Of a DNA stretch of 64,000 nucleotides, positions 7,378 through 9,977 are shown one piece after another (the stretch's first letter is position 1; each line of letters opens with the position of its first letter). The stretch is from Ignavibacteria bacterium. Its GTDB lineage: Bacteria > Bacteroidota > Ignavibacteria > Ignavibacteriales > Ignavibacteriaceae. The notes under the pieces were generated by a model. That model worked only from the letters and a program-made list of their open reading frames with translations, searched no databases and was not told the origin of the DNA. Both the position numbers and the translations under genes were made by a program. The DNA lies in contig JAJTBZ010000037.1 of NCBI GenBank assembly GCA_021286645.1, positions 1 through 64,000 of the forward strand, in the 5' to 3' direction.

Positions 7378-8379
7378 ATGTTTATAGATTTAGTACAGAT
7401 TAAGGTGCGTTCGGGTAATGGCGGCGATGGTGCCGTTCAGTTCCGTAGAGAAAAGTATGTCCCCAAAGGAGGGCCATCGGGCGGTAATGGCGGTGATGGC
7501 GGCAGTGTGTGGTTTACTGCAAATGATAATTTAAATACATTGCTCGATTTTAAATATCAGCATATCTATATGGCGCAAAATGGCAAGCATGGCGGCGCTT
7601 CATTGTGCGATGGAAAAAAAGGCGAAGATATAAATATTCAGATTCCTGTCGGTACCCTGTTAAAGAATGCTGATACCGATGAAGTGATTTATGATTTTAC
7701 TCAAAAAGGTGAATCGTTCTGTATCGCCAAAGGCGGTCGTGGTGGTAAAGGCAACAGTAACTTTGCAACGCCTTCCAATCAAACACCCAGGTTCGCGGAA
7801 GATGGGAAGCCGGGTGAAGAATATAATGTGATTTTGGAATTGAAGCTTATTGCTGACGTTGGATTGGTTGGTTTTCCTAACGCGGGTAAATCAACGCTCA
7901 TCTCTACAATATCTGCTGCAAAGCCGAAAATAGCAGATTATCCGTTTACAACACTTGAACCAAATTTAGGTATTGTACGGTATAAAGATTTCAAAAGCCT
8001 TACAGTTGCCGATATTCCCGGTATAATTGAAGGCGCCTCGGAAGGCAAAGGCCTGGGGTTACAATTCCTGCGGCATATTGAACGTACAAAAATTCTATGT
8101 TTTCTCATTGACTGTTCTTCCGAGACTTTCCGGGAAGATATTGATATTTTAATGAATGAACTCCATCAGTATAGCGAAACACTGGCGGAAAAGGACAAAA
8201 TACTCGCGTTTTCGAAAAGCGATATTGCCAATCCGGAAATTATGAAAGAGTTGCTTGATTATACCGATGACCGGTTCTATGGCACTCCTATTATTTTTTC
8301 AGCTGTCGCTAAAAATAATCTGGATGAATTAATCCAGGTAATGTGGGATGTAATAAATATAAGCAGGGAAACAGAATAG
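7378..8379 (+). CDS. obgE: Obg family GTPase
   Basis: A 333-residue GTPase that in other bacteria binds the large ribosomal subunit and takes part in its assembly and in the stress response. Residues 1-158 form the glycine-rich Obg fold (GNGGDGAVQFRREK, GGNGGDGGSV, GGRGGKGNSNFA). The G domain follows: Walker A GFPNAGKST, switch II DIPGIIEGAS, and a G4 motif that reads SKSD in place of the usual NKxD, followed by SAVAKNN as G5. The C-terminal OCT domain found in some Obg proteins is absent, as is common in this phylum. The gene follows the acidic 690-residue protein by 22 bases. Confidence 0.95.
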   Translation: MFIDLVQIKVRSGNGGDGAVQFRREKYVPKGGPSGGNGGDGGSVWFTANDNLNTLLDFKYQHIYMAQNGKHGGASLCDGKKGEDINIQIPVGTLLKNADTDEVIYDFTQKGESFCIAKGGRGGKGNSNFATPSNQTPRFAEDGKPGEEYNVILELKLIADVGLVGFPNAGKSTLISTISAAKPKIADYPFTTLEPNLGIVRYKDFKSLTVADIPGIIEGASEGKGLGLQFLRHIERTKILCFLIDCSSETFREDIDILMNELHQYSETLAEKDKILAFSKSDIANPEIMKELLDYTDDRFYGTPIIFSAVAKNNLDELIQVMWDVINISRETE

Positions 8380-8504: not shown

Positions 8505-8512
8505 TAGTTTTG
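8505..8512 (+). promoter_or_regulatory. candidate -7 element for the duplicated-His protein
   Basis: TAGTTTTG fits TAnnTTTG and lies 31 bases before the start codon. No matching TTTG was found 19-21 bases upstream, so only half of the promoter is supported. Confidence 0.3.
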
Positions 8513-8543: not shown

Positions 8544-9260
8544 ATGAGAGCAGTACTATTACTCATTATGGCTGTGCTGTTTGTTCCTGTTTTTATATAT
8601 GCACAAAACGGGAAGAAAGAGCATGAAGCCGAAACATCCGTTCCTGCCCTGGCAGAATTTCATGATGTTATCTATCCTATCTGGCACACATACTATCCGG
8701 AAAAAGATTTTGCCGGGTTACGGACTATGACTAATGCAGTTAAAGCCGGCGCGGAGAAAATCTATCAGGTAACATTGCCGGGATTTTATCGTGAAAAACA
8801 AAAAGGCTGGGAACATGGTATCGAATTATTTAAGGTAAAGACTGATGCTTTCTTGAAGGCCTCGGCGGAAACTGATAATGAGAAATTATTACAGGCAGCT
8901 GAAGCCCTGCACTCGTCTTATGAAATGTTGGTACGTGTATTGCACCCTGTGCCCCGCAATGTGGAAGCGTTTCATAAAGTGCTCTATGTAGTTTACCATG
9001 ATTATTTGCCGAATAAAAACTATGAGAAAATTGCAGAAGTCAGCAGCGAGTTAAAAAACCGTGCAGATTCCATTACAACGGTTCGTTTGCGCAAGAATCT
9101 GGAAGCAAAAAAAGAAGAATTTCAGAATGCGGCTAAAGAACTTGTCGATGCCTGTGCTGCCTTGCAGGCAAGTGCCGCCGGAAAAGATTCGGCAGTGATG
9201 GAAAAGCTGGTTCTCGTGGTACATACAAAGTACCAGGCTTTGGAAAAAATATTTGATTAA
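8544..9260 (+). CDS. exported protein made of a tandem His-containing duplication
   Basis: A 238-residue protein with a clear signal peptide (hydrophobic residues 4-20, ending IYA-QNG), so it is probably periplasmic. The mature part is helical and consists of two copies of one unit. F39-H40...H48-x-Y-Y-P recurs as F143-H144...H152-x-Y-L-P, and H123-x-x-Y126 recurs as H227-x-x-Y230. All three histidines are shifted by exactly 104 residues, so the copies align without gaps at these positions. Six conserved histidines in two helical units suggest a metal or haem site, which is inference. No CXXCH motif is present. I do not recognise the family. The gene is alone, and converges on the NarL-type regulator. 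Confidence 0.85.
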   Translation: MRAVLLLIMAVLFVPVFIYAQNGKKEHEAETSVPALAEFHDVIYPIWHTYYPEKDFAGLRTMTNAVKAGAEKIYQVTLPGFYREKQKGWEHGIELFKVKTDAFLKASAETDNEKLLQAAEALHSSYEMLVRVLHPVPRNVEAFHKVLYVVYHDYLPNKNYEKIAEVSSELKNRADSITTVRLRKNLEAKKEEFQNAAKELVDACAALQASAAGKDSAVMEKLVLVVHTKYQALEKIFD

Positions 9261-9350: not shown

Positions 9351-9977
9351 TTAAACCAAATTATTCTGAATTGCGAAATAGATTAGGTCGGCATTCGTTC
9401 GTAAACCCAATTTTTCCAGTAACCGGCTTCGATAAGTATTAATGGTATTCGGGCTTAGGAATAATTCATCCGCAATCTCAACCTGAGATTTCCCTTTAGC
9501 CATACCGATAAGCACTTCCATCTCCCTGTCAGAAAGGCTCTCGATGGAATTCTTCGGGGGAGTATTCAGGTCCTGGGCAAGGAATTCAGCGAGGGTTTCG
9601 CTAATGTATTTACCGCCGCCCGCAACTTTGCGTATAGCCTTCACCAATTCCTCGGCGGCGCTTTCTTTTGAGATATACCCTGAAGCCCCGGCCTGCAATG
9701 TTTTTTTCGCGAAACGGTCTTCGGGATTCATACTTAGAATTAGTACCTTTATCGCGGGTCGTTCACTCTTTAGCTCTTTCAGTATCTCAAGCCCGTTTTT
9801 ACCCGGAAAGTTCAAATCCAGAATGAGAATATCCGGATCTTCCTGTAAAACTAAAGGAACGATTTCCAGAGGGTTGCCGCTTTCACCGGCTAATTCAATA
9901 CCCGGTTCAGATTTAAGGATCTTTTTTAGGCCCTCGCGTATCAATAAATGGTCATCTGCAATAAATACTCTCAGCAT
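9351..9977 (-). CDS. NarL/FixJ-family response regulator
   Basis: A 208-residue regulator. The receiver domain (1-120) has the acidic pocket ADD at 7-9, the phospho-acceptor D54 in LILDLNFPG and the conserved Lys in GYISKESA. A LuxR-type helix-turn-helix follows at about 145-205 (LSDREMEVLIGMAKGKSQVEIADEL and TINTYRSRLLEKL are the typical stretches). It would bind DNA as a dimer after phosphorylation. Its partner is almost certainly the kinase encoded just upstream at 10078-12906, which has the matching HisKA_3 type of dimerisation domain. The two genes are separated by 100 bases and are likely on one transcript. Target genes cannot be named. Confidence 0.93.
   Translation of the reverse strand: MLRVFIADDHLLIREGLKKILKSEPGIELAGESGNPLEIVPLVLQEDPDILILDLNFPGKNGLEILKELKSERPAIKVLILSMNPEDRFAKKTLQAGASGYISKESAAEELVKAIRKVAGGGKYISETLAEFLAQDLNTPPKNSIESLSDREMEVLIGMAKGKSQVEIADELFLSPNTINTYRSRLLEKLGLRTNADLIYFAIQNNLV

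Follow-up and report, generated by a model that had tools for sequence, protein, structure and literature searches.

An exported tandem four-helix protein of Ignavibacteria with paired conserved histidines and a probable role in envelope metal handling

The tandem protein and its locus

The window, that is, the whole stretch of 64,000 nucleotides analysed from a contig of an Ignavibacteria bacterium, contains an open reading frame for a protein of 238 residues, which starts with a hydrophobic signal peptide and is followed downstream by a convergent regulatory gene. The features of the locus are as follows.

7378-8379, + strand: obgE, 164 bp upstream of the tandem-protein reading frame
8544-9260, + strand: open reading frame with ATG start, 238-residue protein, predicted to be exported, with two four-helix units in tandem (AlphaFold pLDDT 89)
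8544..8603, + strand: predicted Sec signal peptide, residues 1-20, cleavage near IYA/Q (assigned by eye from the sequence; residues 21-29 of low pLDDT)
8643..8948, + strand: unit 1, residues 34-135, with helices 34-50, 56-74, 80-108 and 112-133 (AlphaFold; BLASTP of unit against unit)
8955..9257, + strand: unit 2, residues 138-238, with helices 138-154, 160-177, 184-212 and 216-237 (AlphaFold; VIA; BLASTP of unit against unit)
9351-9977, - strand: LuxR-type response regulator, convergent with the tandem-protein reading frame

A TAnnTTTG sequence upstream of the reading frame (8505-8512) is no commoner than chance in the window. The internal duplication, which the first-pass annotation had described as gapless and 104 residues long, is borne out by comparison of the protein with itself: the best ungapped self-diagonal lies at an offset of 104 with a score of 90, whereas 1000 shuffles gave a mean of 27 (sd 4.4) and never exceeded 50. 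BLASTP aligns unit 1 with unit 2 at E=2e-8, and the two units share 20% identity over 101 gap-free columns. The protein has histidines at positions 27, 40, 48, 91, 123, 134, 144, 152 and 227, of which the pairs 40/144, 48/152 and 123/227 are each exactly 104 residues apart, as had been noted earlier.

Conservation and distribution of the domain

A simple protein-level search in 59 related genomes yielded 16 matches, including the window itself, and the six paired histidines are kept in all 14 full-length homologues (36-51% identity), which were gathered without requiring any histidine. A scan of GTDB genomes yielded 80 tandem loci in Ignavibacteria, Aminicenantes, Acidobacteria, Bacteroidales and a few other groups. 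Across the alignment of homologues, where the first-pass annotation had expected its reading to stand or fall, H40, H48, H123, H144, H152 and H227 are histidine in 79 of 79 tandem sequences whose overall identity to the window protein is mostly 33-50%; the scan patterns included H48 or H144, so that these two were partly selected and only H40, H123, H152 and H227 are free of selection. The codons concerned are listed below.

8661..8663, + strand: H40 codon, His in 79/79
8685..8687, + strand: H48 codon, His in 79/79, part of a search pattern
8910..8912, + strand: H123 codon, His in 79/79
8922..8924, + strand: E127 codon, Glu in 79/79, His in single-unit relatives
8973..8975, + strand: H144 codon, His in 79/79, part of a search pattern
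8997..8999, + strand: H152 codon, His in 79/79
9222..9224, + strand: H227 codon, His in 79/79

The same 79 sequences are also invariant at W47, E120, E127, R131, P135, Y148, L200, Y230 and F237. H27, H91 and H134 are not conserved among homologues, and the position of unit 2 equivalent to E127 is occupied by Q231, a variable site without a conserved acid.

Relatives carrying a single unit were reached through two weak partial matches in a phylum-wide search, and a profile search subsequently located the unit in about 11% of the sampled Bacteroidia (44 of 395), as an exported protein of approximately 130 residues, as the C-terminal domain of a superoxide dismutase (SOD) or as the C-terminal domain of a DJ-1 protein. 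The single-unit and tandem profiles align over 96 columns with the histidines in register (hhalign probability 96.4, E=1.2e-9); by this profile comparison, the single units, the SOD fusions and the tandem form are one unnamed domain family. In a tree of the units, units 1, units 2 and single units each form one clade (support 0.989, 0.869 and 0.997), so that the tandem form most likely goes back to a single duplication event.

The single units carry four histidines, H14 and H22 on helix A (i, i+8) and H95 and H99 on helix D (j, j+4), with H99 in the place taken by E127 in unit 1 and by Q231 in unit 2. The full set occurs in 41 single-unit sequences, whose selection script demanded the four-histidine pattern. 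Four matches of the profile search, from three families (G384/G670, G497 and G441), have lost all four histidines and kept W7, P52 and other core residues; such all-or-none loss indicates that the four residues, including the equivalent of H48, form one functional set. Additionally, 12 of the 41 single-unit proteins end in a His-rich C-terminal tail.

In Bacteroidia, the unit is fused C-terminally to Fe/Mn SODs that bear a signal peptide and both standard domains (Sod_Fe_N and Sod_Fe_C); the window protein has no SOD domain. Thirteen such fusions hold the full histidine set, and one more (L126) has the extension with the histidines lost, the whole spanning four taxonomic families. The fusion loci are the following.

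L107/L128, L115/L134, L117, L119, L120, L177, L181, L185, L189 and L192-L195: exported Fe/Mn SOD with the C-terminal His domain
L197:6088-7233, - strand: DJ-1/PfpI-unit fusion, with MbnP, MbnH-like and DUF2911 genes directly after

Searches of Pfam, NCBIfam and PDB sequences with the window protein or its unit returned chance-level matches only, and the earlier remark that the pattern belongs to no named family holds for these collections. The cytochrome b562 profile (PF07361) has no match in the window protein with E of 10 or less and matches 1 of 16 single units at the chance level of E=0.028, and the cytochrome c' profile (PF01322) reaches only E=1.5 with the window protein; membership of the cytochrome c' family was rejected, the protein having no CxxCH motif and C204 as its only cysteine. 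Neither the Metal_resist family (PF13801, the CnrX/ZraP type) nor the di-iron profiles of ferritin-like proteins, rubrerythrins and hemerythrins appear among the Pfam matches of the window protein or its relatives; the one rubrerythrin observed is encoded beside the double-unit gene of locus L199. A tblastn search of plasmids found no relative of the unit, and the literature search turned up no description of this protein or of a SOD extended in this way.

Gene neighbourhoods of tandem and single-unit members

Genes related to metal handling recur near the single units. Across 45 Bacteroidia genomes, SCO1 lies within 6 kb of a single unit in 5 genomes, where 0.33 would be expected (Poisson P=2.5e-5), and MbnP does so in 3, where 0.39 would be expected (P=0.008); these values are optimistic because some of the genomes share ancestry. 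MbnH-like di-haem enzymes and YHS lipoproteins are also among the neighbours. The copper-handling pair MbnP/MbnH (PF20243/TIGR04039) shares neighbourhoods with single-unit relatives in three genomes, although the unit is not homologous to either; one such locus (L144) has the order MbnP, MbnH, single unit, DUF2911. Upstream of the SOD fusion at L128, genes for CusA/CzcA, HlyD, VIT1 and DUF2231 proteins lie on the same strand, and the fusion at L134 is flanked by SCO1 and a YHS lipoprotein.

Two further groups of exported proteins were observed at these loci. Small proteins that have a CxGxC motif but belong to no Pfam family lie beside SCO1 or MbnP (L134:7943-8311, - strand; L144:3599-3970, + strand). 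An unnamed family marked by C-x-x-C-G and LGILPQFKxHFIG adjoins the single unit (L144:7038-7955, L176:6360-7268 and L178:6444-7355, all + strand) and has no Pfam match where scanned, namely in the L176 protein and the start of the L144 protein.

A conserved operon was sought for the double-unit genes and not found, and the window gene likewise has no constant neighbour. No same-strand neighbour lies within 150 bp for 29 of 67 double-unit genes, the neighbours that do repeat are lineage-specific, and MbnP is absent from 20 of the 21 double-unit genomes tested, including that of the window. At one double-unit locus (L199), a single strand carries genes for a DUF2231 protein, a response regulator, a sensor kinase closest to the heavy-metal type, an exported rubrerythrin and the double-unit protein itself, then a heavy-metal P-type ATPase in which SPC and HEGST motifs are present, and a Zn-ribbon protein. 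As double-unit genes mostly have no conserved neighbours, the metal context comes mainly from the single-unit relatives and this one operon. One of these lineage-specific neighbours, a cation-efflux family gene, is convergent with the tandem gene at 9 loci (for example L064:10361-11086, - strand), its Pfam assignment having been checked for one.

Taken as a whole, the SOD fusions and the copper and heavy-metal gene neighbours in other bacteria suggest that the domain probably binds metal outside the cytoplasm. The neighbourhoods point to differing metals, namely copper, zinc or cobalt, and iron.

Fold, candidate site and proposed function

An AlphaFold2 model based on the 14-sequence alignment consists of two confident four-helix bundles (mean pLDDT 89), and a single-unit relative is modelled as one bundle (pLDDT 90.8). 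In VIA, the units score Z 10-14 against bundles of the PsbQ-like, cytochrome c' and cytochrome b562 types, which is a common range for helical bundles. The unit has no significant match in a Foldseek search of the PDB (best E 0.05-0.11) and none in a viral library.

In a helical-wheel analysis, the angle from the hydrophobic face is 64-73 degrees for H40/H144, 86-100 degrees for H123/H227, 136 degrees for E127 and approximately 160 degrees for H48/H152. Cytochrome b562/c' bundles are right-turning, and this handedness was used for placing the helices; the wheel combined with the cytochrome b562 topology suggests that all these residues are turned towards the A/D groove, where H40, H123 and E127 would converge. 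In the ideal-helix model, the CB atoms of H40 and H123 are 5-9 Å apart in the plausible registers 162-168, those of H40 and E127 are 7-10 Å apart, and H40 and H48, two turns apart on one helix, are separated by approximately 13 Å, all of these being coarse distances derived from ideal helices and the assumed handedness. The first-pass annotation had suggested a site made by the three histidines of each copy; the proximity of H40 and H123 agrees with that proposal, and the distance of H48 from H40 in this coarse model does not. The model supports, as a better fit than a three-histidine site, one putative site formed by H40, H123 and the residue at position 127 (Glu in unit 1, His in single units), and sets H48 apart from it.

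The units are predicted to be exported up-down-up-down four-helix bundles of about 105 residues, of a fold class like that of cytochromes b562 and c' (VIA Z 10.5-12, rmsd 2.1-3.9 Å, in a range below Z of about 13 that is common among unrelated helical bundles; Z 11.4-11.7 for b562 alone, inside the same range). This likeness invites a reading as a b-type haem protein, a doubled cytochrome b562-like form with one haem per bundle and two conserved histidines as axial ligands, acting as an electron carrier or as a peroxidase with SOD, rubrerythrin or MbnH; helix A and helix D histidines could in principle serve as such ligands, and redox partners adjoin some relatives. In contrast to these cytochromes, however, the unit has neither a sequence-family match nor CxxCH, the haem-ligand positions do not appear to be conserved, and the window protein has other conserved histidines, probably in a lateral groove, together with a tandem duplication. 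By the VIA ranges, the helix-D histidine falls near b562 residue 95, seven residues ahead of the ligand His102. Mapping inferred from the range ends places N11/V102 of single units, and H144/E234 of unit 2 in the window protein, near b562 Met7/His102, with no conserved ligand at the His102 place. The conserved histidines point 64-167 degrees away from the hydrophobic face, outside the core where haem sits, and the His-rich tails and metal transporter neighbours speak for metal. Haem binding is considered unlikely, and metal is the preferred cofactor, as the positions that carry the haem ligands in b562 and c' do not appear to be conserved.

If the groove does bind a metal, it could be catalytic, with H40, H123 and E127 as a 2-His-1-carboxylate mononuclear non-haem site that scavenges superoxide or peroxide downstream of SOD. 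The invariance of these residues and of R131, the SOD fusion and the exported rubrerythrin adjoining a double-unit member would agree with catalysis, but unit 2 has no conserved carboxylate, single units have histidine at that position, and the neighbours are not all oxidative-stress genes, which makes such a site improbable. It is also conceivable that the histidines are not ligands and that the conserved A/D groove is where another protein docks, perhaps one of the envelope; the conserved polar residues do lie on the bundle flank and not in the core, and E120, R131, Y148 and Y230 are invariant too. Docking alone would nevertheless sit poorly with the H-x7-H plus H spacing repeated in both units, the H-x3-H on single-unit helix D, the joint loss of four histidines, the His-rich tails and the metal neighbours, and it is likewise judged quite improbable.

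It is rather likely that the window gene encodes an exported, probably periplasmic, two-copy four-helix metal-binding protein with sites in the A/D groove and a role as a metal buffer or donor. The idea of a metal or haem site in each copy thus survives as far as a cofactor role is concerned, backed by histidine invariance, loss of the histidines as a set, His-rich tails, and fusions and neighbours related to metals and oxidative stress; one three-histidine site per copy is only partly supported. H40/H144 on helix A and H123/H227 on helix D would face the common groove and bind a transition-metal ion, with E127 as a likely extra ligand in unit 1; H48/H152 would belong to the same functional set, probably in a second or outer site. 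The protein would most likely serve to buffer or pass on metal, perhaps copper, or iron or zinc, in the envelope, working alongside superoxide and peroxide defence. CnrX and ZraP (PF13801) are small exported helical periplasmic metal sensors or chaperones with histidine ligands on more than one helix, sometimes encoded near heavy-metal efflux genes. The window protein is similarly small, exported and helical, with conserved histidines on more than one helix, but its spacing of i, i+8 with j, j+4 or j, E+4 and the lack of a Pfam match set it apart.

A more specific possibility, proposed tentatively, is that an outer A/D-groove metal site on a b562-like bundle serves superoxide and peroxide defence as a dedicated donor or buffer of metal in the envelope, present as an extra SOD domain in some members and duplicated and free-standing in Ignavibacteria and Aminicenantes. 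Neither Pfam nor NCBIfam nor the PDB sequences contain the domain, although about one tenth of the sampled Bacteroidia have it and it occurs in several further groups. Should its role be that of a metal donor or buffer, it would show how exported SODs and other envelope enzymes of these bacteria obtain their metal or keep it safe.
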